Assembly (NCBI GenBank): GCA_964017195.1
Contig: OZ024888.1
Coordinates: 18,640,201-18,704,200, forward strand
Direction of reading: 5' to 3'
Length of the DNA stretch: 64,000 nucleotides
Origin: Siderastrea radians
Lineage: Eukaryota > Cnidaria > Anthozoa > Scleractinia > Rhizangiidae
Each line of letters starts with the position of its first letter. The stretch's first letter is position 1. The position numbers were made by a program, and so were the translations under genes. A model generated the notes under the pieces. That model saw only the letters and a program-made list of their open reading frames with translations. It was not told the DNA's origin and ran no database searches. Shown here piece by piece: positions 11,803-60,232 of the stretch.

Positions 11803-11837
11803 TTTTTCTTGCCAGTTTTCTTCACTCGACGGCCTTT

Positions 11838-13922: not shown

Positions 13923-13999
13923 TTTATTTTATTAACGAAATAAAATAAATTCACGAAATTTTCGAAATCAGACAATCATAAGTTCATTTCCAACCTTGT

Positions 14000-14308
14000 T
14001 TAAAATCCCAGTGTTTTTGTCAATGACGGTCCATGAGTTTCACTGATTGATATGAATGAATCAAAATCTGTACCACTCATCGGCACTGAAAAGTTAATTT
14101 CACGAAATTTTATTTTCATTCCTTTTTTCATCGCGCGATTCTTTTCCAACCTTTCAAAGATCGTTGAAGGAACAAGAAGAGTATCACTTCCGCTGAGGGC
14201 ATCTTTTTTCAACCTCAGTGTGATTGGTCCACGTTTGAAAAAAGCTTGATTAATTTGCATTTTCTGAGACTCAGAAAGTGTTACATTTATTTTATGGATT
14301 TGAGGCAT
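14000..14308 (-). pseudogene. Truncated tandem copy of the core-protein gene
   Basis: Its first ~70 residues closely match the start of the 13110-13922 protein (VTLSESQKMQ, TLRLKKDALSGSDTLLVPST), after which it diverges and stops. The bases around 13967-14000 also repeat the last codons of the major capsid gene (compare 14355-14388). So a segment of about 385 bp spanning the capsid 3' end and the core gene 5' end was duplicated in tandem. It has an ATG (14308) and could still make a 102-residue protein. Confidence 0.75.
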
Positions 14309-14352
14309 CTTTTTATTTCAACGAAATAAAAAAAATCACGAAATTTTTCGAA

Positions 14353-16060: not shown

Positions 16061-16069
16061 TTTTTATAA

Positions 16070-16834: not shown

Positions 16835-16842
16835 TTATTCAT

Positions 16843-17808: not shown

Positions 17809-17853
17809 TTTATTGAATTGAAACATTATTTTTCTTTCAATTAAATATGAAAA

Positions 17854-17882
17854 AACTCGCATAGCGTGTTGCTATGCGAGTT
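17854..17882. promoter_or_regulatory. Perfect 12-bp hairpin between divergent genes
   Basis: AACTCGCATAGC (17854-17865), loop GTGTT, then the exact reverse complement (17871-17882). It lies between the minus-strand virion block and the plus-strand ATPase gene, the only divergent pair in the element. An operator, transcript hairpin or bidirectional promoter part are all possible. Confidence 0.55.
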
Positions 17883-17914
17883 GTTTGAAAAAAAATTCTG
17901 TTGTGAATCAATAA

Positions 17915-18559
17915 ATGGAAATACCAAACTATGATGTAAAAGGTGATGAAGACAGTAATTTCACCCAATTATATCCTTATATGCCGGATAGATGCTTCAG
18001 AATGTTAATCTGCGCTCCCAGTGGAAGTGGTAAAACCAATCTTTTACTTCACATGATAAAAAAACCACTGTTATTTTATGATAAGATTCATCTGTACGCA
18101 AAAAACTTGCAACAAAACAAGTATCAGCATTTGTTGAAAGAATTTGAGCCTCTTTCGAAAAAATATGGTTATAATATCATTGAAGGGAGCAACGGTGAGA
18201 TAATTCCTCTTGATGAAATGACCGATGGAAACCAAAAATTGATCATTTTCGATGATTACCTCAACACCGGGCCCAAAAATGATCGAGAAATACGAAACTA
18301 TTTCACAAACTCGAGGAATAAAAATTGCAGCTGTATATATCTTTCTCAGTCTTTTTACAATACAGATAAAACCATCAGATTGAACTGTTCTCATCACTGC
18401 ATTTATGATTTTCCGAGCAAGAACGAACAAAGAATGATATGTCAAGAATTGAACGTTGATAAAGATGACTATCTCTTGGCAACAAATGAACCGTATACTT
18501 TTTTATATGTTGACAAGCCGAGAAAATTTAATGCAAAAAATTTTACTGAAATAATCTGA
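17915..18559 (+). CDS. Genome-packaging ATPase (FtsK/HerA superfamily)
   Basis: 214 residues. Walker A APSGSGKTN (~34-42), Walker B KLIIFDDYL (~108-116), then a sensor-like CIYLSQSFYNT. Size and motif spacing fit the A32-like packaging ATPases of Polintons, which drive DNA into preformed capsids. It is read divergently from the virion block and is followed after 11 bp by the fibre-like gene, so the two are probably coexpressed. All motifs intact. Confidence 0.92.
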   Translation: MEIPNYDVKGDEDSNFTQLYPYMPDRCFRMLICAPSGSGKTNLLLHMIKKPLLFYDKIHLYAKNLQQNKYQHLLKEFEPLSKKYGYNIIEGSNGEIIPLDEMTDGNQKLIIFDDYLNTGPKNDREIRNYFTNSRNKNCSCIYLSQSFYNTDKTIRLNCSHHCIYDFPSKNEQRMICQELNVDKDDYLLATNEPYTFLYVDKPRKFNAKNFTEII

Positions 18560-18570
18560 ATATTTAATAA

Positions 18571-20265: not shown

Positions 20266-20306
20266 ACATTTTTTTCATTCATTATATATCACAATGCGGA
20301 ACATAT

Positions 20307-20500
20307 CAAAAGAACTGTCTAACGCGTTATAAAAACAATTGAAAAACTTCAAATACAAGTTCATCTGATATTACATGACAATCTGATGACTCATCGGGAA
20401 AGTCCCTGTGGTTTTCAAGACAAAAGAACTGTCTAACGCGTTATAAAAACAATTGAAAAACTTAATGACTCATTTCCTCGGGAAAGTCCCTGTGGACTAA
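20307..20500. repeat. 114-bp direct repeat after the fibre gene
   Basis: A block beginning CAAAAGAACTG occurs at 20307 and again at 20421. Each copy carries the perfect palindrome TAACGCGTTA (20320-20329, 20434-20443) and a later GGGAAAGTCCC. It lies between the fibre stop codon and the right TIR. Confidence 0.85.
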
Positions 20501-20506
20501 TTAAAA

Positions 20507-21158
20507 GTGGTGAATAAAATATCACTCAGCTGCTTTGATGATAAAAGATATATTCATAAAAATGGTGTAACAAGTTATGCTTACGGTCATAATGAACTTT
20601 GAAATTTAACAGAAAAGTTTTCTGTTAAATTCAACAAAAGATTCACCGCTGCGCTCGCATTCTCAGCTGAAAAGTTTCCCAAAAGATTCGCCAAAGATTG
20701 ACCGCTGCGCTGGTAGCCCCCCCCGAACAGAAAAGTTTACCAAAAATTCTCCAAAGATTCTCCAAAAAATTAACCGCTGCGTTGGTAAATCTTTGGTGAA
20801 ATTGCGTGGGAATATTCGAATAGGTTTGCTGAAATGTTGGTAAAATCTTCTGAAGATTCTCCAAAGACTGACCGCTGCGCTGGTAGCCTCAAGTTGCTAA
20901 ATTTTAGCAGAAAAATTCGCTCAAAAATTCACCAAAGATTTGACTGCTGTGTTCGAATTTAGCAGAAAGATTCTCCACGGATTTGACCGCTGTGTTCGAA
21001 TTCTCACTGAAAGATTCTCCACGGATTTGACCGCTGTGTTCGAATTCTCACTGAAAAGTTTCCTGTTCGAAATTTAGCAGAAAATTTGGCTCAAAAATTA
21101 GCTCAAAGATTCTCCAAAAATTAACCGCTGCGCTGGTAGCCCCAAGTTGCTAACTACT
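20507..21158 (-). repeat. Polinton 1 right terminal inverted repeat
   Basis: Mirror of 6021-6673. The inner end repeats the last ~30 codons of PolB without the rest of the gene, so it is a dead end copy. ACCGCTG occurs at least seven times (near 20645, 20701, 20772, 20870, 20985, 21030, 21124). Confidence 0.95.
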
Positions 21159-37388: not shown

Positions 37389-37394
37389 CAGTTT
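37389..37394. repeat. Target site duplication, Polinton 2 left
   Basis: CAGTTT, with the identical copy at 60227-60232. Confidence 0.95.
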
Positions 37395-37479
37395 AGTAGT
37401 AAAGGGCGCTCGTATGTGGCATATGGAGGCTCCTGATTGGTCGAGAGCAAATCAATGACGTCATGTCATTTCCGGTGGG

Positions 37480-37880
37480 GGAAACCGCTGACCAGTGGTC
37501 AAAATGGGATGGTGGGCTCATGCAACCGGAAGTCACGTGATTTGAGATGGGAAACCGCTGACGAGTGTGAAAAAGGGATCGCGGGCTCATGCAACCGGAA
37601 GTCACGTGATTTGAGATGGGAAACCGCTGACGAGTGTGAAAAAGGGATCGCGGGCTCATGCAACCGGAAGTCACGTGATTTGAGATGGGAAACCGCTGAC
37701 CAGTAGTCAAAATGGGATGGTGGGCTCATGGAACCGGAAGTCACGTGATTTGAGATGGGAAACCGCTGACCAGTGGGGAAAATAGGATGGTGGGCTCATC
37801 CAACCGGAAGTCACGTGATTTGAGATGGGAAACCGCTGACGAGTCTGAAAAATCGATCGTGGGCTCAAGGTGGGGGAAAA
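37480..37880. repeat. Six 69/70-bp tandem units in the left TIR
   Basis: Units each contain TCACGTGATTTGAGATGGGA and AACCGCTGAC(C/G)AGT; TCACGTGA starts near 37533, 37602, 37671, 37741 and 37811. The mirror copy is at 59740-60140. Confidence 0.95.
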
Positions 37881-38051
37881 CCGCGGAGAAAACGCGGGCT
37901 CAAAGTCCAAAGTCCAATTTCTTGAACGTGGGTGACCCATCTATGGCCCATATATGAATTTGATATGGTTTTGAAAACAACACGAAATAAAAATAATATT
38001 TTTTATTAAATTGGTTTTTACAAGAACTGAGAAATGTTTTTGGAGTGTTCC

Positions 38052-38270
38052 TTAATGTTCAATAGAGGGTCCCCACCATTGTTTTTGACATCGAGTTATT
38101 CTTCGCCATTGGTTGTTGTCACGAATCCATTGTTGTAATTGACGTCGATGATTTCTCATTAAAGGTATGGCAAAGGAACTGTAGAATGGGGGTGGTGGTG
38201 GTGGCGCCCAATGTTCTCGATCACACTGTTCACATTCGATGATCTTGTTGGGGCTTTCACTGGTATCCAT
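38052..38270 (-). CDS. Small Cys/Trp-rich protein, unknown
   Basis: 72 residues from ATG 38270, overlapping the PolB stop by 14 bp. It has a CEQC pair near the start, a run of prolines, then a basic segment RNHRRQLQQWIRDNNQWRR and a late Cys with WW. I do not recognise it. Because it lies in the TIR, an identical gene (59351-59569) sits at the other end in inverse orientation, so this is the only gene present in two intact copies. Confidence 0.5.
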   Translation of the reverse strand: MDTSESPNKIIECEQCDREHWAPPPPPPFYSSFAIPLMRNHRRQLQQWIRDNNQWRRITRCQKQWWGPSIEH

Positions 38271-41200
38271 AAGGGTAGGTCTGGAAGGTGACAGGATCTA
38301 CCACTCTCTTGTCGAAGACCAACTGATACTGTTTGTACTCGGGGAAGGTGTACAGTAGGTAGTGCTTGGGATCCCGGACGATCTGGTGTGTTTTGATGAT
38401 TTGGGTTTGTCTGGGTTTCAGGAGGGGTTTCTTGATTTCGTCGAGGACATTCTGACGCATGACGTCATAGTTGAGTTGCGCGTGTCCTTCACTGTTGAGT
38501 CGGAACCCTCGCACCTTGCATTCTACCTTTCCTTTATTTGAAGAATATCCATAATTCTTGGGTCCTCCGCTGACGAATTCTTGGATGTATTCATCATGAT
38601 CTATTTCGGAGGTGAAGTCCCCTAGATAGCAACCCAAGGTAGGTTTGAATTGAGCGGGTGTTTCCTCCAGGTAGATGACGGAATCCGTATCAAAGTAGAG
38701 GACTCTTTCTCCTAAGGCTTCCAGGGCGGTATAGAGTTTGAGCCGAGCATGGCAGGTGGTGAAGCAGGCCACAAAAATGTTGAGGTTGGGTGAAACGCGG
38801 ATGTCCTCTTTTTGATTTTGGTAGTGCACCTCCACCATATCGTCATTGATGACGGAGACGTGACGGACGTCCAAGACATCACTATCCAAGAAACGATGAA
38901 AGACCTGTGGATCATGAAAGGCTTGAATTTGGGTCTTGTTGAGGCGTTGTCCAAATTTGCCCCACATGGAGTTGAGCATGAGTTTAGCTAGGGTACGCAG
39001 GCCCGGGTTCTTCTTGATGTTGTCGTACTCTAACTGGATGCCTTCATGCAGGAAATACTGTTCGATGTAATGTTGTTTTTGTTGTTCCGTCATGTCATCC
39101 TTAGGCCACCCACTGGCTTCTTGTTTGATTTTGAGCCAGGTGTTGACATAATCGGCGAAGAGGCCCTCACAGGTTTCTTCAAAATGCCAGGCTTCATAGA
39201 TGTATTGGACTTGGTACCCCAATTCAACGGCTTTGACTAATTCCGGGCTGCACCAGGTACTGGTGAGGGCGCGTTGTTGGTCGGAGTGATGGCAATGATA
39301 GGATCTGTCCAAAAGAGGTTTGTCCATTTCTTCTTTCACACAATGGGCACAGAGGGGAAAGAGTAGTTTGTCGCCATGACGGTAAGGCAGCACGGGATGG
39401 TACAATTCACGGGGAGGCAGGATTTTGCATTGGATGAGTCCAAAGTACTGGTGGATGTCCGTGTGACCTGGGGCGAAGATGATTTTCGGATGTCCTTTGG
39501 GGTATACAGAGTTCTTGTTGACCCACGGGTACAAGGAGGTGACATCGATGTAGTGAATTTTTTGGCCAGGGGTGATATGATGGTAGAGTTTGATAGCATT
39601 GGTACGACCTCCACAGAAAGCCTCTCGAGGTTCAAGGGGATGGATGAAGTTGAGTTCCCGGACGAAGGCGTCGATCTCTGGGTGGGTGTCTCGGAGGTGG
39701 TCCCATTCACATCCCCACATTTGAAGGACGTTGTACCCTTGGTCGGTAAGTTTTTGGACTTTGTCTTGGGTGGCGTCATAGACGTCCTGCATGGTCCGAT
39801 CATGGTTGCGGGGATGTTTTTCGTAGCGATGAGGATAACAGACCGGGCATCCGTGGGTGAAACAGCCTTGAAATTCGTAGACGGTATGGGTGTCGGGGCA
39901 ATAACCATCCACATGGATGTTGGTCCCGGGGATCTTATACTCGCCTTGATTTCGGGCATGTTGAATGTACTGAGGCTCTGGATGGGCATTGGCCAGTAGA
40001 TCAGCGGGGGTAAGATCTTGGAGGGCGCGTTGACGTAGTTGGTGATCGCACCAGGTTAACCATTGAATGGCTGGGAGGGAGTGGTTGATGTGGTTGTTTC
40101 TCCACCCCTTCGGACCGGCGGGTTCACTGGCAATACTGTTGGGGATCATCCGGTTCATACGTAAATCTCGATTACAAGCCGAGGCAATGGTAACGTGATC
40201 AAAGGGATTGAAGCCGGTCAAGTCTTCAAACATGCGTTTGAAAGTCAGACATCCTTGTTTCAAGAGTCGTACATCGGAACTGCAATAGGCCAATAACTCT
40301 TGTTGAAAATGAAACACCACACCCTGGTCGCGTTGTTGTTGATGCCAGGTTTCAAAGGCTTGTCTTCCTTCGAGTGTCATGGTCTCGGGCATGTAGTAAT
40401 CGCGTGAGGGGAGGATGCCCACGTACTGTTGATGGTCAGGTATGTTGAACTTGTGGGGGAAGTACCCTTTGCAGAGTTCGGTCAAGCCAAAGGTTTTGGG
40501 AAACGCGGAGAGGGGCATCTGGAAGAAACTCATCGAATCGATGAACCGGATGCGGTCATGTTTAATTTCTAAGAGTTTACATCCGTTGCGGAGTTGTTGG
40601 ACGATCCGGTTGTCCCCATAGTATTCTTGGATGATAAAGAAGCCGTCGTACCCCTGGAAGTTATGAGCGATGACATTGACTTGACGGGTATCGTGGAGCG
40701 TCAAGGTATCCAGCCATTCCAGAAAGTCACGGATACAAGTGAGACCTGGGAAAGGCTTGGGTTCATCGTTGTCTTCGGTTTCGGCCACGACGAGATTGGC
40801 AAGATGTTTTTCCTGGGGTTGCATGGCTTCGATATCAAAGAAGACGTGTAAGGGTGGCAGGTCATCCTCGTCCTCGGAAGAGGAGGCAGGGGGTTCGGCG
40901 GCGGCGGCACCTCGTTTGGCGCGAGGACCTTTTTGACGGGTCCTCTTTCTCTTCTTCTTTTGGTCTTGAGGTTTGGGGGCTCTTTGTATAAAACAACGGT
41001 GGTCCTCGGCGTCCACGTACTGATGACAAGACGGGCAGTCTATGTGGAAACAACGGTGACGTTGAATGCGGGACAAGCCTACATTTTGTTGATAACAGTC
41101 AGGGCATCGGTATCGTTGAGAGCACACGGAGGAGGTCTGGAGGCCCGTGATGGGTTTGCCCGCATGGGTCTTGCTGGCATGGGCTTCCTTACACGCGGGT

Positions 41201-42444
41201 CCAAAAAAGTCTCGATGACACGACCCGCAACGTTGAGTGGCTTTCAGGTGTCGGGGGTACGCATATTGAAAGTCCGGACAATCTTTCTGTCGACAGGCTC
41301 CACACACCTTGGTCTTGGTGCATCGATGCCGTTCCTCATGGTCATAGGGTTTCCAACAATCCGCACACACATAACTGGACCCAAAAAATCCTGGCAATTT
41401 GGTGATGACATCATAATGGTCTTGGTTGTGCAACAGGATCAGTTGTTTGTCTCGTGGGGGACCAAATGTCGTGATGTGAAACGATCGCTGCGCATCGACC
41501 AACAGGATCTGGTAACCGGTGAGGGAGGGAGCTTGACTGAATTGGGTCAAGGCATCATACCCACAGGGACCGAAGGGTACCTGGGCTTCATTCTGGAGGT
41601 CCCAAGCGAGGGTTCTCTGCAGGGGCCTTCCTTTGCAGATGCTGTTGTAGTTCGGGTGCTGGTCCACGCGAGCTTTGGCGACCACAAGGGCTCTAGCACA
41701 ACAGAGCTCATCATCATTTTGAATGCGGATGACCGACCGTTTGTTGGTTGTCAACAGGGTCATGGTGGGATGGCCTGGTTTCCCACGACGGGGTCTGCCG
41801 GTACCTTGAGGCGCATGATGAACTTGCGTGATGGACACTTGAAAGGAATCGTCCATTTCAAATTGTTCGTTGCTGTTGAGGGCTTGGGCTAAACGTTGGA
41901 ACAGAGCTTCCACCCGTTCTGTGTCTCGGCGCCATTCCCCTGCCCGTAATCCCCATCCCTGAAAATTATTGTGCAGGCGATCGGAGGCGATGGTAAAGTA
42001 GAGTCGATCTTGATCGTGGAGGTCAGGCGTGGTGGTTAACACTTGATGGACGGCTCGACGTAATCCCTCTTGGAGAGCATGGGTTATATTTTGGCCTGGA
42101 AGCAAGTTCCCCCTTTGACGTAACTGGGTCTTGAAATGACGTTCTTGTACCCCCATGCGATCACTCTTCCGATTCACAAAAGGTTCTAAGTCAAATTGGA
42201 AGGTAACGTGTTCAGAGGGATCCAATCCACCCCCACTTTGTTCCCATTGGTCCAAGGCCTCTTGACAAATGGCGTCGTCACTGTCCGTCATGTTTTCGAG
42301 GCAAATTAAAGGTCCCACACAGGAATGTGTTGTCTCTTCTTCTTCTGGCTCTGTATCCGACATATCTAATCCGAGCATGGCTAAAACCTCATGGTGGGCG
42401 AGGCCACTTGGCCCCGCCACATCGTCGTCTTCTTGTGAGGACAT
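38257..42444 (-). CDS. Protein-primed family B DNA polymerase, OTU-like N-terminus
   Basis: 1,395 residues from ATG 42444. N-terminal part: a Cys in DELCCARAL (~243) and a His in DHYDVI (~341) with strands between, an OTU-protease-like arrangement. Next is an array of zinc knuckles (CADC...CGAC...CGSC...CPDC...CPSC, ~360-490), a basic linker, exo I FFDIEAMQ (~537), exo II AHNFQGYDGFF (~594) and exo III YCSSDVRLL (~720). A VDGYCPDTHTVYEFQGCF insert (~843-860) is followed by motif A YIDVTSLYPW (~964), motif B LNSMWGKFGQR (~1157) and motif C YFDTDSVIY (~1250). Complete and apparently functional. Its 3' third lies in the TIR. Confidence 0.95.
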   Translation of the reverse strand: MSSQEDDDVAGPSGLAHHEVLAMLGLDMSDTEPEEEETTHSCVGPLICLENMTDSDDAICQEALDQWEQSGGGLDPSEHVTFQFDLEPFVNRKSDRMGVQERHFKTQLRQRGNLLPGQNITHALQEGLRRAVHQVLTTTPDLHDQDRLYFTIASDRLHNNFQGWGLRAGEWRRDTERVEALFQRLAQALNSNEQFEMDDSFQVSITQVHHAPQGTGRPRRGKPGHPTMTLLTTNKRSVIRIQNDDELCCARALVVAKARVDQHPNYNSICKGRPLQRTLAWDLQNEAQVPFGPCGYDALTQFSQAPSLTGYQILLVDAQRSFHITTFGPPRDKQLILLHNQDHYDVITKLPGFFGSSYVCADCWKPYDHEERHRCTKTKVCGACRQKDCPDFQYAYPRHLKATQRCGSCHRDFFGPACKEAHASKTHAGKPITGLQTSSVCSQRYRCPDCYQQNVGLSRIQRHRCFHIDCPSCHQYVDAEDHRCFIQRAPKPQDQKKKRKRTRQKGPRAKRGAAAAEPPASSSEDEDDLPPLHVFFDIEAMQPQEKHLANLVVAETEDNDEPKPFPGLTCIRDFLEWLDTLTLHDTRQVNVIAHNFQGYDGFFIIQEYYGDNRIVQQLRNGCKLLEIKHDRIRFIDSMSFFQMPLSAFPKTFGLTELCKGYFPHKFNIPDHQQYVGILPSRDYYMPETMTLEGRQAFETWHQQQRDQGVVFHFQQELLAYCSSDVRLLKQGCLTFKRMFEDLTGFNPFDHVTIASACNRDLRMNRMIPNSIASEPAGPKGWRNNHINHSLPAIQWLTWCDHQLRQRALQDLTPADLLANAHPEPQYIQHARNQGEYKIPGTNIHVDGYCPDTHTVYEFQGCFTHGCPVCYPHRYEKHPRNHDRTMQDVYDATQDKVQKLTDQGYNVLQMWGCEWDHLRDTHPEIDAFVRELNFIHPLEPREAFCGGRTNAIKLYHHITPGQKIHYIDVTSLYPWVNKNSVYPKGHPKIIFAPGHTDIHQYFGLIQCKILPPRELYHPVLPYRHGDKLLFPLCAHCVKEEMDKPLLDRSYHCHHSDQQRALTSTWCSPELVKAVELGYQVQYIYEAWHFEETCEGLFADYVNTWLKIKQEASGWPKDDMTEQQKQHYIEQYFLHEGIQLEYDNIKKNPGLRTLAKLMLNSMWGKFGQRLNKTQIQAFHDPQVFHRFLDSDVLDVRHVSVINDDMVEVHYQNQKEDIRVSPNLNIFVACFTTCHARLKLYTALEALGERVLYFDTDSVIYLEETPAQFKPTLGCYLGDFTSEIDHDEYIQEFVSGGPKNYGYSSNKGKVECKVRGFRLNSEGHAQLNYDVMRQNVLDEIKKPLLKPRQTQIIKTHQIVRDPKHYLLYTFPEYKQYQLVFDKRVVDPVTFQTYPYGYQ

Positions 42445-42683: not shown

Positions 42684-43088
42684 ATGGACTCTCACCATGA
42701 GAATTTGTTAAAAGAGTTTGAAACGTTTGAAGCGGATTTAGAAGTGGATGAGATTTTGAAGAAAGTCAAGGAGGAGTTGACACTGGACTCAAGTGTCACT
42801 GAGTTTGGGGAGAAGCTGAAAGAGAGGGAGCAGCTCAAAGGGGCAGCTCAGGCAACCCGGGCAGCACGAGCCACTTACTTCCATCAGCTGTGCTACCCTC
42901 AATACACCTGTGACTGGTACATCCAGGGCCTCGACTTCTGCTGCCCCTATTGGCGCTATGAGTTTAAGCGCCCAGCTACCCCTCCGCCAGCACCGCCCCC
43001 CTCGCCCGAGGTCTCCCGTAAGCGAGGGCCTCCGTCGCAGCAACCGACAACGCAGGACGTACCGATCAAACAACGACGACGACGTTGA
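42684..43088 (+). CDS. Acidic protein with Cys/Trp cluster, unknown
   Basis: 134 residues from ATG 42684. The acidic helical N-terminus (LKEFETFEADLEVDEILKKV) is followed by a striking cluster HQLCYPQYTCDWYIQGLDF then CCPYW (~70-95), and a proline-rich then RRRR end. It is not a family I can name; the Cys/Trp spacing could bind zinc. It overlaps the next frame (43088 back to at least 42958) and might be its N-terminal part if a frame change or splice exists. It has its own TATA box. Confidence 0.6.
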   Translation: MDSHHENLLKEFETFEADLEVDEILKKVKEELTLDSSVTEFGEKLKEREQLKGAAQATRAARATYFHQLCYPQYTCDWYIQGLDFCCPYWRYEFKRPATPPPAPPPSPEVSRKRGPPSQQPTTQDVPIKQRRRR

Positions 43089-44247
43089 CTCTGACCCAGA
43101 CGACGTTGACGACAAGGACGAGGACTATGTCCCTGACGACAACGACCTTAACGACTCTGAGCCAGACGAGGACTTGGACGACATAGACTATGACCCTGAC
43201 GACGACGAAACGACAGAGTTACTGACGAAAGACGAACGACGACGGAGACGGAACGCTATCAAAAAAGCTAGGTACAATGCCCGCTACCCAGAGAAAGCCC
43301 GAGCGAGGAATATTCGCAAAAAAGCCAACTACCGGCACAAGTACCCTGAGAAAGTGCATGCTGCCAAAAAACAATACGTAGAACAATATGCGGATCGAGT
43401 GCGGGAGTCCAAAAGGCGTTATGAGGAGACGCATAAGGAGGAACGGCGTGCCGCCAAAAAACAATGGGCCCGAAACAACCCAGCAAGTCGTGCCGTAAGC
43501 GATCGGAAGTATAAAGAGAAAAACAAGGAACGTATCAGACTCCGAGATCGAGAGTATCGTCAAAAGAATCGTGCACGAATATTGGCCTACAACAGAATGT
43601 ACAACAGAAGTGAAAAAGGAAGGGCGGCTCGTCGGAGTTATTATGCTGCGAACCGAGAGAACCTGCTGGCGCAAAGAAGAGAGTACTACTGGGATAACCG
43701 CGAGAAGATCCTGGAGAAATCAATAAGGTACTACAACAAAAGGAAGAAGGAGGTGTCTCGTCCCAAACCACTGCGGGTGGTATTGACTGATTGTAGAACG
43801 CAACCTTCTCTGGAAACGTATTTGAATGACTTTTGTGCCTCCTTACCTTCTGTAGAGAGACAGAAAACGGAAGAGAAAATCAAAGCATTGGGACCCTTGA
43901 AATTGACCATTCCCTTGGAGGACTTTATAAAAACCATACCGAAAACCTTTGAGAACATTTCTTTTTCTGAATCATTTCTTGAGGATTATACTCTCACGGA
44001 TATGGATTCGGGGGATGCGCAAGTCATGGACCCCCCTGACTTAAGCCCCCCTGACTTGGACCCCTCTGACTTGGAGGACTTTTCGTCTTTGTTGCAGAAC
44101 ATATCGCCTGACGAGTGGACCGAGTTACTGAGGGATGTGGAGGACTCTTGTTCCTTTGATCTGGAGGCATTGGTGCCCCCCGAAGACCTCGTTCATGACA
44201 TGTCACCCGACGAGGGGGTGGATTTAATGTATGATTTAGTAATGTAA
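42958..44247 (+). CDS. Repeat-rich basic protein with acidic flanks
   Basis: 429 residues from the first ATG (42958); the frame is open earlier. An acidic Asp-rich stretch precedes a ~190-residue, very basic region made of about ten degenerate 15-22-residue units (NARYPEKARARNIRKKA, RHKYPEKVHAAKKQY, KEKNKERIRLRDREYRQKNR), predicted helical. The C-terminus is acidic with repeated PPDL motifs and SPDEW/SPDEG. Such Tyr/Asn/Pro-Glu-Lys repeats occur in several metazoan element-linked proteins; function unknown, nucleic-acid binding plausible. Transcribed divergently from PolB. Confidence 0.6.
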   Translation: MSLSAQLPLRQHRPPRPRSPVSEGLRRSNRQRRTYRSNNDDDVDSDPDDVDDKDEDYVPDDNDLNDSEPDEDLDDIDYDPDDDETTELLTKDERRRRRNAIKKARYNARYPEKARARNIRKKANYRHKYPEKVHAAKKQYVEQYADRVRESKRRYEETHKEERRAAKKQWARNNPASRAVSDRKYKEKNKERIRLRDREYRQKNRARILAYNRMYNRSEKGRAARRSYYAANRENLLAQRREYYWDNREKILEKSIRYYNKRKKEVSRPKPLRVVLTDCRTQPSLETYLNDFCASLPSVERQKTEEKIKALGPLKLTIPLEDFIKTIPKTFENISFSESFLEDYTLTDMDSGDAQVMDPPDLSPPDLDPSDLEDFSSLLQNISPDEWTELLRDVEDSCSFDLEALVPPEDLVHDMSPDEGVDLMYDLVM

Positions 44248-46415: not shown

Positions 46416-46738
46416 GGTCGACCCGTCAATAGACGTTGAAGGGCTTTGTCTTGTTTGATGAGGTCTTGCGTCTCTTTATAGCCTTGACGGGTATTGCGTT
46501 TGAAATCGGACCACCAACCCCCACCTCGTTGTCGTCGGTAATGTTGTACATTATCGGTAATGCCTTTCAAGGCTTGCCCGCCTAATTTGCCTAAAGCCAG
46601 TCCAAACCCAGGCGCAGGGCCTGAGAGAAACATACTCATACCATGGGCAATTTTATCCACCAAACGGGGTTTGCGACGCATTAAAGCCCCTCCTCGTTGT
46701 TTCCTTTTTCTGCGTCGTCGTCGTCGTTGGACGGCCAT
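46409..46738 (-). CDS. Basic virion-like protein with two GG sites
   Basis: 109 residues from ATG 46738. Basic leader VQRRRRRRKRKQRGGALMRR; a hydrophobic middle (FLSGPAPGFGLALGKLGG); a second site YRRQRGGGWW; then a helical end (DLIKQDKALQRLLTGRPW). Two QRGG sites suggest processing into three peptides by the element's protease. A TATA-like ATAAAAA (46772-46778, minus strand) lies 34 bp upstream. Confidence 0.6.
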   Translation of the reverse strand: MAVQRRRRRRKRKQRGGALMRRKPRLVDKIAHGMSMFLSGPAPGFGLALGKLGGQALKGITDNVQHYRRQRGGGWWSDFKRNTRQGYKETQDLIKQDKALQRLLTGRPW

Positions 46739-47343
46739 GGTTCTAAGAGTGTCGGACTGGGAGGGAGCGGCTTTTTATGGATCCAGTAGTCTTTGGGTTT
46801 CAAGGGACGAGGACATCCATCTACATAGCATAGAGCTTCCAAGGGTTGGTAGACAAAATGACGATGGTACTCTTGGAGACATCGTTTGGGTAACGGAGGG
46901 GTGAAATCCACAATGGTATCATCCAAGGTTTGCATCTTGATTAAAAATCCTTCCAGGTCCTCCAAGGGGACACCTCGCACATAGGTTTTCAATTCGGTCA
47001 AGGCTTTGGCATAGGTGGTAAACGCAAATCGACTCATGGTCACTTTAAATCGGTACTGTTTAAAATCATTCCATCCTTTGACCACGGTGCCCACCGCCGC
47101 CAAACACGCTACCAACGTACTGTTCTCCAAAAGGGGGCCAGCAATCATGCCCGCGGCCATCAGGAGTAAGGCCAGGCCATTGAACAAGGCATTGATACAC
47201 TTGTAATGATTCAACATTTTGCGATAACACCACCATTGTTGATGGTAAAAGGCATACAAGGAATCCATGCGTTGTAACAAATCCGGTGGGAAGGGGATGC
47301 CAGGACGTCGAGATCCATTCAATAACGACACGACGGTTTTCAT
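46681..47343 (-). CDS. Two-helix membrane protein (SLATT-like), unknown
   Basis: 220 residues from ATG 47343. Two hydrophobic segments, INALFNGLALLLMAAGMIAG and NSTLVACLAAVGTVVKG (~48-90), flanked by long amphipathic helices (YAFYHQQWWCYRKMLNHY before; YAKALTELKTYV after). This layout resembles SLATT-type membrane proteins. The acidic C-terminus overlaps the next gene by 58 bp. Function unknown; perhaps a virion or replication membrane protein. Confidence 0.55.
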   Translation of the reverse strand: MKTVVSLLNGSRRPGIPFPPDLLQRMDSLYAFYHQQWWCYRKMLNHYKCINALFNGLALLLMAAGMIAGPLLENSTLVACLAAVGTVVKGWNDFKQYRFKVTMSRFAFTTYAKALTELKTYVRGVPLEDLEGFLIKMQTLDDTIVDFTPPLPKRCLQEYHRHFVYQPLEALCYVDGCPRPLKPKDYWIHKKPLPPSPTLLEPWPSNDDDDAEKGNNEEGL

Positions 47344-48297: not shown

Positions 48298-48969
48298 TTA
48301 TACTCGCTTTTGATAGGTGCGCGTCCATCCTTCGTCTTTTAACAGGTGACTCAACAACCGTTGTTGATCGGAGGAGGCGGGATGTAAATCTAACATCAAA
48401 TAGCCATACGGGCGGGTGGTGGCTTGATGAAACGTCTCCAAGGTGTCTTTCCAGGTCGTCGGAAACGATTGCAGCATGACATTGCGTACCCCTAATTGAT
48501 CTCGGGGATTCTTGAATGCCACAATGTAATGCGCATTGCGGGATATACTTTTGGCATAGCGACCCACGGGAAACATGTCTTGGCACAAGTAGAGCACCGT
48601 CACCCCTTGATGATGTGAATGTTTGGTGAATAAATCCAACACGCGTTTATCGTGACTCCCTTCATCCATTAAATCATCCAAGACCAGGACCCCCTGTCCT
48701 TGAGGAAACCATTGGACCAACGCGTCATGATCGGGAATCCCTTCGTGAAACACCACCCCATGATCTTGCATGCCTCGAAATCGATCTTGCCACGCCCCAT
48801 AACAATAATGCACTTGGGTCGGTGGGGTGTCAAACAACTCGGGGTTGTCTACCAAGAGTTTTTCCGTAAACGCGGTTTTGCCACATCCCGACGGGCCCAC
48901 CACCAAGATAGAGGAGGGAGTATGAAAACGAAATGGTTTCCCCGTTTGCATGATGATGATACTACCCAT
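48298..48969 (-). CDS. Genome-packaging ATPase (FtsK/HerA superfamily)
   Basis: 223 residues from ATG 48969. Walker A VVGPSGCGKTA (~23-33), Walker B GVLVLDDLMD (~92-101), sensor region VTVLYLCQDMF. Motifs and size match Polinton packaging ATPases; counterpart of 17915-18559 in Polinton 1, though here on the same strand as the capsid genes. The Pol III terminator of the tRNA-like gene ends only 5 bp before its start codon. Confidence 0.92.
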   Translation of the reverse strand: MGSIIIMQTGKPFRFHTPSSILVVGPSGCGKTAFTEKLLVDNPELFDTPPTQVHYCYGAWQDRFRGMQDHGVVFHEGIPDHDALVQWFPQGQGVLVLDDLMDEGSHDKRVLDLFTKHSHHQGVTVLYLCQDMFPVGRYAKSISRNAHYIVAFKNPRDQLGVRNVMLQSFPTTWKDTLETFHQATTRPYGYLMLDLHPASSDQQRLLSHLLKDEGWTRTYQKRV

Positions 48970-48973
48970 TTAG

Positions 48974-48982
48974 AAAAAAAAA
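48974..48982 (-). terminator. RNA polymerase III terminator
   Basis: Nine Ts on the minus strand, 13 nt beyond the 3' end of the tRNA-like gene. T4 or longer is the normal Pol III stop signal. Confidence 0.75.
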
Positions 48983-48996
48983 GGCACCTTTTTATT

Positions 48997-49081
48997 GGAA
49001 TCGGTGGGACTCGAACCCACGCACGACCCAATCGCTATCCTGGATTAAAGGCCAACGCTCTACCGACTGAGCTACGACTCC
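48997..49081 (-). tRNA. tRNA-like gene with Pol III A and B boxes
   Basis: 85 nt, read on the minus strand. Acceptor stem GGAGTCG/CGATTCC pairs fully (one G-U); D arm GCTC-AGTCGGTA-GAGC; T arm GTGGG-TTCGAGT-CCCAC. A box TAGCTCAGTCGG and B box GGTTCGAGTCC match the Pol III consensus exactly. The middle is odd: the anticodon stem is only TTGG/CCAG around an 8-nt CCTTTAAT loop, followed by a possible variable arm GCGA-TTGGG-TCGT. If the first T of the loop is U33, the anticodon is UUA. It lies between the protease poly(A) region and the ATPase gene. It could be a working tRNA, or a VA-RNA-like regulatory transcript. Confidence 0.8.
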
Positions 49082-49109
49082 GACACACTTTTTTTCCAAC
49101 AAATTTTAT

Positions 49110-49649
49110 TTAATCATTCCGTTGATGATACGGATGACAACAAAGTTGATACCATCTGGCTTCTTGGCCTACAATCAATTGTTGAACGCGTTGACCGGCT
49201 TGATGGTCATTGCTTACATAATCATGATCGGAAAACTCATTTAAAAAGTCTTGCAAGGTCCGTCCACGGGCTTTGGCTTTCAAGTACAACAAGGCGTAAT
49301 CCCCACAACTCTTGCTTGAAATGGCTTGGAGGGACTTGCCATTGGTCACCACATACTTCCAATGTTTCACCATCCAAGCTTGGAACGGGGCGGCTTGCAC
49401 GTACGTGTCCATGGGCAAAGCATAACTGTCGAGGATTTCACACACGTTTCCCTCGGTCCACACCCCTAACCAATGTTGTCCGGGTTGATCGTGCGGGTCG
49501 GTGTTCACAATGTACCCTTGGGGTGGGGTCTTGACAGGACGCTTGGGTAAACGATCACAGGCCACCGTTCCGTAAAAGACAGGTTTCAAGTGGGGGTCGT
49601 CTCGGGCTAAATAATCCAACTGGACATTATTCAAGGCCACGTGTTCCAT
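49110..49649 (-). CDS. Adenain-like cysteine protease
   Basis: 179 residues using ATG 49649, which begins 4 nt after the capsid gene stop; the frame is open a further 25 codons into the capsid gene. Catalytic His in GQHWLGVW (His59), Asp in EILDSYALP (Asp74), Cys in SSKSCGDYALLYL (Cys115): the adenovirus protease order and spacing. An AATAAA-type signal lies at about 49100, before the tRNA-like gene. Likely substrate sites are the (Q/M)RGG motifs in the neighbouring small proteins. Confidence 0.88.
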   Translation of the reverse strand: MEHVALNNVQLDYLARDDPHLKPVFYGTVACDRLPKRPVKTPPQGYIVNTDPHDQPGQHWLGVWTEGNVCEILDSYALPMDTYVQAAPFQAWMVKHWKYVVTNGKSLQAISSKSCGDYALLYLKAKARGRTLQDFLNEFSDHDYVSNDHQAGQRVQQLIVGQEARWYQLCCHPYHQRND

Positions 49650-49653
49650 TTCT

Positions 49654-51054
49654 TCAGTGTTGGTAAATGTTGTACAACACGGCTCCGTTGCGGTCAATCT
49701 CCAGCAAGTTCTCAAATTCTCCATAGACGAGCACGGTTATATTGACACCGGGGGCGGCTCCAAATTCCAAGACCAATTGTAAATCGCCCGTTTGCTTGGG
49801 GTTGAGGTTTTGACTGTCAGCACATCCATTGGCCACATTGTCAAACATGTACAAGGTACAATTTTTAGCTTGGCCCCAATCTCCTAGTTCTACCATGTTG
49901 CCTTTCTTTTTGCACCAAGCCCCACTGGCTTGCAGAAAACGGAAGTAGCCCAAGTTATCTCGGCTGCCATTGTTGTGCACTAACTGCAGGGTTTCATAAG
50001 GGTATTCTTCTCCTCTGACAATCTGTTTAATGGAGCTCAGTCCAAATTTCTGGAAACAGAAAGGATCTCGGGTCACATCTCCATTGAAGCCTCGGCTGTC
50101 CAGTAACCCCACAATCAATCGGTCCGGTATTCTGTTTTGAAACAGGTTAGGGATATCAAAGCGGACCAGGTTGTCTTGCATGGTGAACGTACGGATTTCA
50201 CTGCGGACGGTCGGGTAGGTAGCCACTTGGCCTTCATTGTGTCTTTTTTCAGATATACTCTGGTAGATGGCGTCATTCAAACGCAGTTGGCAGAGATGAA
50301 ACCGTAGTTTCACATCCCCTTCCATCAATCGACCAGCTAGAGCCACTCCATTGAAAAACAGGCTGGGACCATTGAAATGAAATTTCATCTTGATTTCGAT
50401 GCCAGGCACCAACAGTTTGCCGATATGAAACACTTCCAGGTGCGGGGTAAACACCAGACTGTGGGTAAGACCTCCAGCATACTTGGCGGTTTCGGCTACC
50501 ATGGCGTCCAAGGCCCCTTTGTGATTGTCACTGAGACCTTGCCAGGCTACATGGTCTCCTGCTTTGTCGGTGTTGTTGGCCGTCCATTGGGGTGGGAAAT
50601 CCACTTGATTGTACCATCCTTGGGGTCCTAACACGGTCTTGCCATCTTCTCGATCATAATTCAGCAAGGTTTCCAGGTAAGCTTTGTAATGATAGGTGTC
50701 GGATTGTGGACTGATCAACGTGCCATTCAATTGCAAGTCAATTTGCTTGATGATGGAATGGGCCAAATTGTTGACGGGCCACAATTTCTGATTGGCCACC
50801 AAGTTATCGTTCGTACTCTTTTGCAATCTCAATTCCATGGTAAAGTAACTGCGTCCCAAATCCACAAAATCGTCTAATCCAGGAATGATGAATTCCATGG
50901 GATTGATACCCGTGGTGGTGGGTTGAATGGTAACCATGCGATAGGCATTGATGCTAATGTCGGTCGGTGGCACCTTGAAAATCCGTAACGCCGAGTTGAC
51001 GGTCGCTTCGGAACGCTCGTGAGCCGGGGCGGTTTGTGTACTCACGTCAGGCAT
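49654..51054 (-). CDS. Major capsid protein (double jelly-roll)
   Basis: 466 residues from ATG 51054. Family text: ALRIFKVPPTDISINAYRM, NPMEFIIPGLDDFVDLGRSY, then FTMELRLQK, the QLNGTLISPQSDTYHYKAYL region with ETLLNY (~125-145), and a C-terminal LVLEFGAAPGVNITVLVYGE. This is the hexon-like Polinton capsid protein, from a clearly different lineage than the one at 14353-15642. TATAAAAA at 51103-51110 precedes it. Intact. Confidence 0.92.
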   Translation of the reverse strand: MPDVSTQTAPAHERSEATVNSALRIFKVPPTDISINAYRMVTIQPTTTGINPMEFIIPGLDDFVDLGRSYFTMELRLQKSTNDNLVANQKLWPVNNLAHSIIKQIDLQLNGTLISPQSDTYHYKAYLETLLNYDREDGKTVLGPQGWYNQVDFPPQWTANNTDKAGDHVAWQGLSDNHKGALDAMVAETAKYAGGLTHSLVFTPHLEVFHIGKLLVPGIEIKMKFHFNGPSLFFNGVALAGRLMEGDVKLRFHLCQLRLNDAIYQSISEKRHNEGQVATYPTVRSEIRTFTMQDNLVRFDIPNLFQNRIPDRLIVGLLDSRGFNGDVTRDPFCFQKFGLSSIKQIVRGEEYPYETLQLVHNNGSRDNLGYFRFLQASGAWCKKKGNMVELGDWGQAKNCTLYMFDNVANGCADSQNLNPKQTGDLQLVLEFGAAPGVNITVLVYGEFENLLEIDRNGAVLYNIYQH

Positions 51055-56633: not shown

Positions 56634-56858
56634 ATGGACTACTACCAAGATCTCAACCGAGACGACTTTGCTTCCACCGAAGACTATTTGGCTGAACGGG
56701 TCAAACGAGGTCTAGCAGCGGGATTCACGTTCCAACAGTGCCGACAGCACCACGTCATTGATTTCGGTTTGGCCTTAGGGTTGACTCCCACGGAGATTCT
56801 AGCTATTGTAGGTCCAGACACCGGCTACGTATTTAAATGCCCCCCAACATCGACATGA
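56634..56858 (+). CDS. Small protein upstream of the SLOG frame
   Basis: 74 residues from ATG 56634, with a TATTTAAG box at 56589-56596. Acidic helix (YYQDLNRDDFASTEDYLAER), then a hydrophobic part (DFGLALGLTPTEILAIVG). It ends 22 bp inside the SLOG frame, at a CCCCCC run (56840-56845). It may be the SLOG protein's own N-terminal part, made by frame change, or a separate small gene. Not recognised. Confidence 0.5.
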   Translation: MDYYQDLNRDDFASTEDYLAERVKRGLAAGFTFQQCRQHHVIDFGLALGLTPTEILAIVGPDTGYVFKCPPTST

Positions 56859-57532
56859 TTGGAGAACACGATGTGGATGCCTTGGAACTGCAAGTGGGTC
56901 ATGGCCATGTGGTCTACACAGGGGGAGCCAAAGGTACGGATGCCCTTGTGGAACAACAGGCCAAACACTTTGGGATGCAACTCGAAGTCCTGGTCCCCCC
57001 GAACCATCCTCGAGCCACGTTCATCACCCCTTCTACGGTGGAAGTGCTGATGTTGGCCAACCCTCATCTTCACCAAGCGGCAGAGAAACTAGGGAAACGA
57101 ATGCCCAGTCATTTTTACACCCTGCAATTGCTGCAACGCAATTATCAAATTGCCAAGAAAGCCCATACCATCTATGCCTTTGGCATTTTGGAACCGGATC
57201 ATAAACGCGTGAAAGGGGGTACCGGTTGGACCGTGCAATTGGCTATGGATCAAGGCAAACCCGTCTACCTCTTTGACATACCCAGTCAAACGTGGTACCG
57301 TTCGGACCATTACTACCAAGTCAACGAGAATGCCGCCACCCTGGTCACTGGCAGTCAATTTGTCCCTTGGGGACCCAAAAAGCCCACCCTTCATCAAAGC
57401 AGTGCCGTGGTAGGATCCCGGGAGGTGGACGACAAAACCCGAGCCGAAATTCAAGCCTTATTCAACCGCACGTTCTGTCTCCCCGAGAACATTGATCAAT
57501 TACGTATGGAACTGGAAGACTTTCATTTGTAA
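56837..57532 (+). CDS. SLOG-fold (YspA/LOG-like) nucleotide-binding protein
   Basis: 231 residues from ATG 56837. Seen: HVVYTGGAKGTDALVEQQAK (~25-44), the glycine-rich nucleotide-binding loop of SLOG proteins; VLVPPNHP; IYAFGILEPD; GGTGWTVQLAMDQGKPVYLF; and near the C-terminus AVVGSREVDD (190-199), which looks like the first strand plus GSR motif normally found before the GGA loop. SLOG proteins bind nucleotide derivatives such as ADP-ribose products and occur in signalling and defence systems (family knowledge). On the plus strand, opposite to the virion block. Confidence 0.7.
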   Translation: MPPNIDMIGEHDVDALELQVGHGHVVYTGGAKGTDALVEQQAKHFGMQLEVLVPPNHPRATFITPSTVEVLMLANPHLHQAAEKLGKRMPSHFYTLQLLQRNYQIAKKAHTIYAFGILEPDHKRVKGGTGWTVQLAMDQGKPVYLFDIPSQTWYRSDHYYQVNENAATLVTGSQFVPWGPKKPTLHQSSAVVGSREVDDKTRAEIQALFNRTFCLPENIDQLRMELEDFHL

Positions 57533-57808: not shown

Positions 57809-58195
57809 TCAAACAAACAAAACACGTCGTACACGATTGGCTCGTTCCCGTCTGTCCCGTTCCTCCGCTTTCTTCACTTCCCTGTAAAAATGACTGATGG
57901 TCAACCAAGCATTTCCGCAGTAAAGTTCCGGCAGATGCGCCGCCATATAAAAATTAAGTTCCTCAAAGAGCGCCATACTAATTGGCCAATATTTCTCCTC
58001 CCGGGTTGCCACTATACGGCGCTCAATAAAAGGGATGATTCGATTAGCCAGGGCTCTCTTTAACCTCTGGTAGGTGACTGCGTGAAGAGGAAGCCCATTC
58101 TCTGGCTCCACAAAACAGAGTAAAAATAAACGAAGGAACGCCTCCACACGTTGCCGATTCAGGGGGCGCCATGACTCCTCCCGTCTCTCGTACAA
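57809..58195 (-). CDS. Basic helical protein at the TIR edge, unknown
   Basis: Up to 128 residues. Arg/Glu-rich helices (RQRVEAFLRLFLLCFVEPEN, LKRALANRIIPFIERR, HFYREVKKAEERDRRERANR). No ATG occurs near the beginning; the 5' end falls exactly at the inner boundary of the right TIR (58195), and the frame runs on into it. The gene may have lost its start when the long TIR was formed. Not recognised. Confidence 0.4.
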   Translation of the reverse strand: MYERREESWRPLNRQRVEAFLRLFLLCFVEPENGLPLHAVTYQRLKRALANRIIPFIERRIVATREEKYWPISMALFEELNFYMAAHLPELYCGNAWLTISHFYREVKKAEERDRRERANRVRRVLFV

Positions 58196-59364
58196 AAATC
58201 CTGCCTCCCCGTGAATTGTACCATCCCGTGCTGCCTTACCGTCATGGCGACAAACTACTCTTTCCCCTCTGTGCCCATTGTGTGAAAGAAGAAATGGACA
58301 AACCTCTTTTGGACAGATCCTATCATTGCCATCACTCCGACCAACAACGCGCCCTCACCAGTACCTGGTGCAGCCCGGAATTAGTCAAAGCCGTTGAATT
58401 GGGGTACCAAGTCCAATACATCTATGAAGCCTGGCATTTTGAAGAAACCTGTGAGGGCCTCTTCGCCGATTATGTCAACACCTGGCTCAAAATCAAACAA
58501 GAAGCCAGTGGGTGGCCTAAGGATGACATGACGGAACAACAAAAACAACATTACATCGAACAGTATTTCCTGCATGAAGGCATCCAGTTAGAGTACGACA
58601 ACATCAAGAAGAACCCGGGCCTGCGTACCCTAGCTAAACTCATGCTCAACTCCATGTGGGGCAAATTTGGACAACGCCTCAACAAGACCCAAATTCAAGC
58701 CTTTCATGATCCACAGGTCTTTCATCGTTTCTTGGATAGTGATGTCTTGGACGTCCGTCACGTCTCCGTCATCAATGACGATATGGTGGAGGTGCACTAC
58801 CAAAATCAAAAAGAGGACATCCGCGTTTCACCCAACCTCAACATTTTTGTGGCCTGCTTCACCACCTGCCATGCTCGGCTCAAACTCTATACCGCCCTGG
58901 AAGCCTTAGGAGAAAGAGTCCTCTACTTTGATACGGATTCCGTCATCTACCTGGAGGAAACACCCGCTCAATTCAAACCTACCTTGGGTTGCTATCTAGG
59001 GGACTTCACCTCCGAAATAGATCATGATGAATACATCCAAGAATTCGTCAGCGGAGGACCCAAGAATTATGGATATTCTTCAAATAAAGGAAAGGTAGAA
59101 TGCAAGGTGCGAGGGTTCCGACTCAACAGTGAAGGACACGCGCAACTCAACTATGACGTCATGCGTCAGAATGTCCTCGACGAAATCAAGAAACCCCTCC
59201 TGAAACCCAGACAAACCCAAATCATCAAAACACACCAGATCGTCCGGGATCCCAAGCACTACCTACTGTACACCTTCCCCGAGTACAAACAGTATCAGTT
59301 GGTCTTCGACAAGAGAGTGGTAGATCCTGTCACCTTCCAGACCTACCCTTATGGATACCAGTGA
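58171..59364 (+). pseudogene. Truncated PolB copy in the right TIR
   Basis: 397 codons. Apart from eight new N-terminal residues it is identical to the end of 38257-42444. It holds polymerase motifs B and C (DTDS) but lacks the exonuclease domain and motif A, so it cannot polymerise. It exists because the TIR extends into PolB. The ATG at 58171 lies just outside the TIR, so a 45-kDa fragment could in principle be made. Confidence 0.9.
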
Positions 59365-59569
59365 AAGCCCCAACAAGATCATCGAATGTGAACAGTGTGA
59401 TCGAGAACATTGGGCGCCACCACCACCACCCCCATTCTACAGTTCCTTTGCCATACCTTTAATGAGAAATCATCGACGTCAATTACAACAATGGATTCGT
59501 GACAACAACCAATGGCGAAGAATAACTCGATGTCAAAAACAATGGTGGGGACCCTCTATTGAACATTAA
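59351..59569 (+). CDS. Second copy of the small Cys/Trp-rich gene
   Basis: TIR copy identical to 38052-38270 (72 residues, CEQC near the start). Since both TIRs keep it open, it is present as two intact genes pointing outward. Confidence 0.5.
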   Translation: MDTSESPNKIIECEQCDREHWAPPPPPPFYSSFAIPLMRNHRRQLQQWIRDNNQWRRITRCQKQWWGPSIEH

Positions 59570-59739
59570 GGAACACTCCAAAAACATTTCTCAGTTCTTG
59601 TAAAAACCAATTTAATAAAAAATATTATTTTTATTTCGTGTTGTTTTCAAAACCATATCAAATTCATATATGGGCCATAGATGGGTCACCCACGTTCAAG
59701 AAATTGGACTTTGGACTTTGAGCCCGCGTTTTCTCCGCG

Positions 59740-60140
59740 GTTTTCCCCCACCTTGAGCCCACGATCGATTTTTCAGACTCGTCAGCGGTTTCCCATCTCA
59801 AATCACGTGACTTCCGGTTGGATGAGCCCACCATCCTATTTTCCCCACTGGTCAGCGGTTTCCCATCTCAAATCACGTGACTTCCGGTTCCATGAGCCCA
59901 CCATCCCATTTTGACTACTGGTCAGCGGTTTCCCATCTCAAATCACGTGACTTCCGGTTGCATGAGCCCGCGATCCCTTTTTCACACTCGTCAGCGGTTT
60001 CCCATCTCAAATCACGTGACTTCCGGTTGCATGAGCCCGCGATCCCTTTTTCACACTCGTCAGCGGTTTCCCATCTCAAATCACGTGACTTCCGGTTGCA
60101 TGAGCCCACCATCCCATTTTGACCACTGGTCCGCGGTTTC
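59740..60140. repeat. Six 69/70-bp tandem units in the right TIR
   Basis: Mirror image of the array at 37480-37880, each unit with TCACGTGA and CAGCGGTTT. Confidence 0.95.
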
Positions 60141-60226
60141 CCCCACCGGAAATGACATGACGTCATTGATTTGCTCTCGACCAATCAGGAGCCTCCATAT
60201 GCCACATACGAGCGCCCTTTACTACT

Positions 60227-60232
60227 CAGTTT
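60227..60232. repeat. Target site duplication, Polinton 2 right
   Basis: CAGTTT, identical to 37389-37394. Confidence 0.95.

Follow-up and report, generated by a model that had tools for sequence, protein, structure and literature searches.

A single clade of Polintons in the genome analysed here bears, between its protease and packaging ATPase genes, a tRNA-like gene that keeps its acceptor, D and T arms nearly unchanged among copies but has, in place of the anticodon arm, a centre which differs between copies. We consider this gene, with a probability of about 0.57, to encode a noncoding RNA of tRNA origin and Pol III type, which acts in the style of adenovirus VA RNA or of the TMERs of gammaherpesvirus 68 (MHV68); it is probably a virus-style regulatory RNA rather than a true tRNA. 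The analysis started from one copy, found in a stretch of DNA of 64 kb which is here called the window, and was extended to the genome to which the window belongs.

The tRNA-like gene and its Polinton

The Polinton which carries the gene (37395-60226) looks intact, with identical terminal inverted repeats (TIRs) of 2032 bp and the target site duplication (TSD) CAGTTT. DNA polymerase B (PolB), integrase, capsid protein, ATPase and protease, situated between TIRs and accompanied by a 6-bp TSD, identify it as a member of the Polinton/Maverick elements. Its features are listed below in window coordinates, with the strand in brackets where one applies.

37389-37394, left target site duplication CAGTTT, read from the sequence
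37395-39426, left TIR, 2032 bp, 100% complementary to the right TIR, contains the 3' end of PolB
38257-42444 (-), DNA polymerase B, 1395 aa, Pfam PF03175 with E 2.2e-43
48298-48969 (-), packaging ATPase, 223 aa, next gene on the downstream side of the tRNA-like gene, weak Pfam matches below cut-off, some homologues with PF04665
48974-48982 (-), T9 run, Pol III terminator-like, after the 13-nt trailer
48983-48995 (-), 13-nt trailer ATAAAAAGGTGCC, identical in 60 of 72 copies
48996-49081 (-), tRNA-like gene, 86 nt, by Rfam and ARAGORN
49007-49017 (-), putative B box GGTTCGAGTCC, read from the sequence
49021-49056 (-), centre of 36 nt replacing the anticodon and variable regions, with a weak predicted hairpin at about 49025-49053
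49063-49074 (-), putative A box TAGCTCAGTCGG, read from the sequence
49110-49724 (-), adenain-like protease, 204 aa, adjoining the tRNA-like gene on the upstream side, homologues P0329 and P0331 with PF00770
49654-51054 (-), double jelly-roll major capsid protein, 466 aa
54059-55189 (-), retrovirus-type integrase, PF00665 with E 1.2e-13, and a possible chromodomain, PF00385 with E 1e-4, just under cut-off
58195-60226, right TIR
60227-60232, right target site duplication CAGTTT, read from the sequence

The C-terminal coding part of PolB is present twice because the 2032-bp TIRs include the 3' part of this gene. Pfam gave no match for the window protease itself (49110-49724), NCBIfam gave only matches below cut-off for the seven proteins searched, and a sequence search of solved structures with the capsid protein returned none. 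Among viral contigs no relatives were found, whether by ATPase, capsid alignment, tRNA pattern or ATPase alignment. Each TIR holds five tandem repeats of 69-70 bp (37479-37867 and 59754-60142). An ORF at 46681-47343 (-) shows weak similarity to SLATT_1 (Pfam E 4e-4 and NCBIfam E 9e-5, both under cut-off), a domain known from prokaryotic defence-associated effectors. Two further ORFs are situated on the strand opposite to that of the virion block, one at 56837-57532 (+) with weak similarity, under the Pfam cut-off, to DprA (DNA_processg_A), and one at 42958-44247 (+), charged and 429 aa long, with no match in Pfam or NCBIfam. The window also contains a second Polinton (6021-21158, ~15.1 kb) with terminal inverted repeats of ~0.65 kb and the TSD TGTCTA, whose ORFs, judged by length and letters, include a PolB-like protein of 1300 aa and an integrase-like protein; the Rfam scan gave no tRNA match in it.

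The Rfam tRNA model (RF00005) matches 48996-49081 on the minus strand with 52.0 bits (E 2.8e-8 for the whole 64-kb window), well above the gathering score of 29 and sufficient to place the gene in the tRNA structural family, and the scan with the whole of Rfam gave nothing else at gathering level in the window. ARAGORN found a single gene in the window, coinciding with the Rfam match, and reported it as 'tRNA-???' with a two-base anticodon. All three stems are complete (acceptor 7 bp, D 4 bp, T 5 bp), and the discriminator base is not followed by an encoded CCA. The distance from D stem to T stem, 23 nt in a class I tRNA, is 36 nt in this gene, and the anticodon region is non-standard. The A and B boxes, identified by the consensus of such boxes, form together with the T9 run a type 2 internal promoter with a T-run terminator, as in the VA RNA and TMER kind of Pol III RNAs. 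The T9 is the longest T run in the whole Polinton on both strands. This promoter and terminator anatomy suggests that the gene is transcribed by Pol III. On the coding strand the gene begins 28 nt past the protease stop (49110) and is situated 26 nt ahead of the ATPase ATG (48969), with AATAAA motifs immediately before and immediately after it. A preliminary description of this DNA had already recognized full acceptor, D and T arms, A and B boxes and a T9 located 13 nt downstream, all fitted between the 3' end of the protease and the start codon of the ATPase. The sequence, RF00005 and ARAGORN agree with this, and the covariance model search which it had suggested points to the same site. It had not noticed that the anticodon arm is replaced and differs between copies.

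Residence in one Polinton clade

The genome searched was the window's own, 804.8 Mb in 439 contigs. Out of 796 candidates for near copies of a 151-bp interval around the gene, at least 40 were scored. A pattern consisting of an exact 17-nt part of the A box and an exact 11-nt part of the B box, at a spacing of 38-68 nt, matched at 534 places (250 + 284), while the reversed control pattern matched at 0. We fetched 70 of these copies, namely the first 30 of 100 matches listed and 40 picked by hand from the rest, with some repeats skipped. A protease match and an ATPase match flank the gene in all 70 (one of the protease matches has only 38% identity), and in the first 30 fetched copies the protease is upstream and the ATPase downstream. 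The gene is followed by a run of at least six Ts in 69 of the 70 copies and by a run of four in the remaining one. As these copies were chosen by their boxes, they cannot reveal loss of the boxes. A box-independent sample came from a genome search with the ATPase protein P0160, in which 150 of 1536 candidates were scored. On contig C1, for which the pattern list is complete, 23 of the 25 ATPases found by this protein search are accompanied by the gene, 14 at exact pattern places (matched by eye) and 9 with changed boxes or another spacing; the two loci without it are L129 and L130.

The number of exact matches and the common surroundings of the fetched copies argue that the tRNA-like gene is resident in these elements and not a chance insertion. 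This is in accordance with the preliminary description, which had held a chance host insertion to be unlikely and had proposed to look for the same gene between protease and ATPase in related elements. As evidence to the contrary it had named relatives lacking the gene together with a host SINE of the same sequence at unrelated loci, and what we found instead were three non-Polinton loci which share only the A and B boxes. The dispersal to unrelated places that is expected of a tRNA-derived SINE was not seen among the fetched long-centre matches, all 70 of which, out of 534, are in Polintons, and neither an A tail nor a SINE body was seen beside the gene.

The gene is nevertheless restricted to one clade, and other Polinton clades in the same genome are without it. 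At 20 loci upstream of ATPases the exact pattern has no match; half of these (10) possess the gene with inexact boxes (RF00005 38.8-52.8 bits), and the other 10 are without it. In an ATPase tree made of 17 tRNA-bearing rows (picked by hand from 73) and 7 tRNA-less ones, 24 rows in all, every tRNA-bearing row falls into one group with a support of 99/100. This group includes one tRNA-less copy, L146, which is the ATPase of locus L141 and has 92% identity to the ATPase of the window; for the remaining six rows without the gene the identity is 77-82%. In L141 (G000:C5:25237620-25238060) the motif AATAAAAAGGTG, which elsewhere follows the tRNA-like gene, stands directly after the protease stop, so this close relative represents either an empty site or a clean loss.

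Constraint on the gene was examined in the window and 39 near copies. Pairwise diversity among these 40 copies, whose selection by similarity over the 151-bp interval favours low values there, was 0.0055 over the whole tRNA-like gene, with 0.000 at each of its 25-nt ends, as compared with 0.028 and 0.037 in the two spacers and with 0.088 and 0.071 at third codon positions of the ATPase and the protease, respectively. Variable sites in the same copies number 2 of 86 in the gene against 120 of 404 at third codon positions (p 1e-9) and 10 of 53 in the spacer (p 0.001, which becomes 0.11 when singletons are dropped). No significant difference between the gene and first plus second codon positions was found in these copies (p 0.11).

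The variable centre

There are 53 distinct forms of the centre in the 70 copies, 35-42 nt long, and shorter centres are found in L121, L122, L126, L131 and L136. Types include GGATCCCC...GGGGATC, GGACCCCC...GGGGGTC, GGACTTGATC...GATTGGGTC and, in the window, GGCCTTTAATC...GATTGGGTC. Most forms are predicted to fold as a hairpin in which pairing is kept while the letters change. Pairing was counted in an alignment of 38 sequences, the window and 37 genes taken from the 55 distinct ones fetched (near forms were removed by hand), for a structure of our own choice, in which five outer central pairs were added to the acceptor, D and T stems; L098 was excluded from the count because a repeated GTGC shifts it out of register. 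Overall 98.2% of the cells are paired, a value reached by 0 of 500 shuffles and compared with 32-59% when the partner columns are slid by 1-3, and in the central helix 96% of cells are paired. Two-sided changes occur at two of the five pairs of this helix, and 4 of 500 shuffles reach two. The first of these pairs is U-A or C-G with U-G intermediates (C-G in 11 sequences), and the second is G-C or, in L048 alone, C-G. With L098 included there are four such pairs, two of them due to L098 only. The actual covariation score is reached by 0 of 500 shuffles, and the number of pair types is no richer than in shuffles, 325 of 500 of which reach the actual value. In all these comparisons relatedness of the sequences can by itself outdo the shuffles. 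The overall pairing, the covariation score and the two-sided pairs, with pair types unremarkable, point to structural constraint at the level of RNA, although covariation in the central helix appears modest.

Five of the 38 rows, including the window type, do not form the second central pair. The window centre folds with -7.1 kcal/mol and a z of 0.03, no better than shuffles, as is also the case for the centres of L050 and L103. For the 5' half of the window centre, several 3' halves from other copies are better pairing partners than its own one, and the minimum-energy fold predicted for the window RNA is not that of a tRNA, because the D arm pairs with the centre. A guide directed against its own element was rejected as a candidate function: the longest match of the centre to its own element is 10 nt, 164 of 300 shuffles have one as long, and no guide-like match beyond chance was found there.

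The gene could instead act at the level of DNA, if the A and B boxes were to bind TFIIIC and so separate the transcription units of protease and ATPase, as an insulator or road-block, with the RNA as a by-product. The position of the gene, fixed between two genes of the same strand, is in agreement with such a role, as are the AATAAA motifs on both sides of it and the fact that the 25-nt ends which hold the boxes are its most constant segments. The same role, however, predicts that pairing in the centre is unconstrained, which is difficult to reconcile with the almost complete pairing and the two-sided changes of the central helix. Halves of different centre types also pair worse when swapped, since among all arrangements of arms from seven hand-picked type representatives only 2 of 5040, the real one counted, pair equally well, and in 37 of 38 sequences the acceptor stem changes solely between G-U and G-C and between U-A and U-G. 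We therefore regard a role at the DNA level as unlikely.

To compare the centres with the flanking genes, centre types were assigned by scripted motif rules and mapped on an ATPase tree of 73 copies. The tree requires 24 changes of type, the minimum possible being 6 and shuffled labels requiring 31.5; some clustering of types on the tree remains, as 0 of 200 shuffles was as low as 24. When only well-supported branches are counted, the changes they force are fewer, namely 9 (type A), 5 (type B), 4 (type W) and 4 (type E). Among 72 copies, pairs in which ATPase and protease each reach 97% identity have the same centre type in 16 of 44 cases (0.36), exactly the proportion in all pairs (925 of 2556, 0.36). 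Very recent copies tend to share it, as seen in 4 of 7 pairs at 98% and 3 of 3 at 98.5%. In the 70 pattern copies the distance between centres correlates with flank distance at a rho of 0.11 for the ATPase and 0.16 for the protease, while the ATPase and protease distances correlate with each other at 0.82; for 29 gene windows of 40 columns the correlation is 0.16-0.72, with a median of 0.44 and one window below 0.17. The 44 pairs with both flanks within 3% have a mean centre distance of 0.23 and identical centres in 4 cases, as compared with at most 0.043 for every gene window. Centre types are thus distributed with little relation to the genes beside them. This decoupling could be due to local exchange, by gene conversion from one constant arm to the other, to general recombination, or to selection that has replaced the centre repeatedly.

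Function, origin and known systems

If the gene is a regulatory RNA gene of the VA RNA or TMER kind, host Pol III would transcribe it into an RNA of ~105 nt, whose tRNA-shaped body would provide stability and recruit host tRNA factors; candidates are La, RNase P/Z, exportin-t and tRNA- or dsRNA-sensing proteins. While virions are being made, the RNA would then decoy or modulate factors of the host, much as adenovirus VA RNA does or the tRNA-like portion of an MHV68 TMER. By analogy with these systems the hairpin may be the effector or specificity part, and it would diversify through conflict with the host or with rival Polintons. It is a tentative idea, and one we hold to be rather unlikely, that Polinton lineages of one genome bear different hairpin types as specificity modules upon a shared tRNA-like carrier, and that these types are exchanged as cassettes between near-identical elements. 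If so, the RNA might serve recognition between elements (superinfection exclusion, or recognition of own products or genome) or it might track a fast-changing host factor. It would amount to an RNA typing system, of which our literature search found none for Polintons.

The gene could also act as tRNA punctuation, with RNase P and RNase Z cutting a read-through RNA and so freeing the 3' end of the protease message and the 5' end of the ATPase message. Its orientation and the short distances to the protease stop and the ATPase start fit this well, and the acceptor and T arm, which RNase P and Z require, are among the constant parts. Punctuation, however, needs no Pol III terminator, and the T run is kept in nearly all copies. 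It also leaves the diversified centre unexplained, and other Polinton clades manage without such a gene, for which reasons we find it quite improbable.

The anticodons which ARAGORN assigns differ by copy (Gln, Ser, Gly, Glu, Cys, or incomplete), which argues against decoding. A constant anticodon in an arm with a 5-bp stem and a 7-nt loop was not found among the 53 centres of the 70 copies. Type E can be drawn with such an arm, TTTGG-ACTTGAT-CCAGA, followed by a long variable arm, and this form may be the ancestral one; by inspection, types A, D and F and the centre of L131 are better suited to a long hairpin. An ordinary decoding or suppressor tRNA was rejected, as the window loop is readable as UUA by inspection but other copies have another or no full anticodon. 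An intron reading was rejected as well: the intron modes of ARAGORN gave nothing credible (a 496-nt candidate which wraps round the piece of 500 bases and, once the threshold was relaxed, a spurious candidate of 79 nt in another part of the piece), and splicing, by inspection, restores no 5-bp anticodon stem. A functional tRNA, be it ordinary or suppressor, whose anticodon arm is unusual or interrupted by an intron, would be comparable to the tRNAs of Polinton-like viruses (PLVs) and would explain why ARAGORN reads some copies as tRNA-Gln(TTG) or others; tRNAs of PLVs are reported in PMC12220804. With an 'anticodon' that varies or is incomplete, no fixed 5-bp/7-nt arm and no intron reading that restores one in the window, it is nonetheless very unlikely.

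As for the origin of the gene, the A box part at normal tRNA spacing occurs at 8 places in the genome, which are three host tRNA-Lys(CTT) genes, three non-Polinton loci (L118, L119 and L125) and the two short-centre Polinton copies L121 and L122. The three non-Polinton loci are tRNA-derived and repeat-like, e.g. GGCCTTGTAGCTCAGTCGGTAGAGC..., resemble each other beyond the tRNA part and are a SINE family by their look; they share just the A box and B box with the Polinton gene and differ from it in acceptor stems and centres. The Polinton gene and tRNA-Lys have GGTCGTGGGTTCGAG in common (in L121 the extra CGTG is absent), and on the 3' side the Polinton gene and L125 have CCCACCGA in common. 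Capture from tRNA-Lys and capture from a repeat-like locus of the L125 type are both possible. A functionless hitch-hiker, i.e. a tRNA relic or SINE fragment fixed in the progenitor, is disfavoured and highly improbable, for although these non-Polinton loci have the same A box and L141 resembles an empty site, the constraint is far above that of third codon positions (the contrast with the spacer being weak without singletons), pairing is kept, the T run is retained and the gene is present in nearly all ATPase-selected copies of contig C1.

The analysis goes beyond the preliminary description in that hundreds of copies have a conserved tRNA-like carrier with a diversified and apparently exchanged hairpin. 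Such an RNA points to RNA-based conflict or regulation in Polintons, and the many natural hairpin types within one genome are a ready series for structure-function work. Titles and abstract openings of open-licence papers yielded no tRNA-like noncoding RNA of Polintons proper. PMC10741620 holds Polintons to be near the root of many large eukaryotic DNA viruses and discusses virophages with tRNA genes.

Among known systems, tRNA-derived SINEs share with the Polinton gene the Pol III boxes and the tRNA origin, and repeat-like loci with the same A box are present in this genome, but the Polinton gene is without A tail or SINE body and always stands between protease and ATPase in the fetched copies. 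PLVs and virophages, as related elements, carry genes of the tRNA family, 558 in one collection (PMC12220804), and those named there have amino acids assigned and are discussed as decoding. The Polinton gene, in contrast, has no constant anticodon and one fixed place in the copies examined. TMERs (vtRNAs) are transcribed by Pol III and have a tRNA-like 5' structure, to which they add miRNA hairpins and a triplicated A box. In the Polinton gene the hairpin instead replaces the anticodon arm, and only the 13-nt trailer separates the body from the T run.

Polintons are related to adenoviruses. Rfam includes a VA RNA family, and no VA family was found at gathering level in the window, where the scan with the whole of Rfam gave RF00005 only, or at E up to 1 on 48800-49300. 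No sequence homology to VA RNA was seen. The analogy to VA RNA and MHV68 drawn in the preliminary description stands in the sense of 'works like'. VA-I is a viral RNA which Pol III transcribes from a type 2 promoter (PMC8223928), and VA RNA is described in PMC6599070 as a structured noncoding RNA, here of a distantly related double jelly-roll virus. According to the latter source VA RNAs are abundant and sabotage the host machinery which senses dsRNA, VA-I being an inhibitor of PKR. VA-I is described as built of a terminal stem, a central domain and an apical stem, whereas the acceptor, D and T arms of the Polinton gene fit the Rfam tRNA model. The comparison makes it testable whether Polintons, like adenoviruses, make a Pol III RNA alongside their virions.
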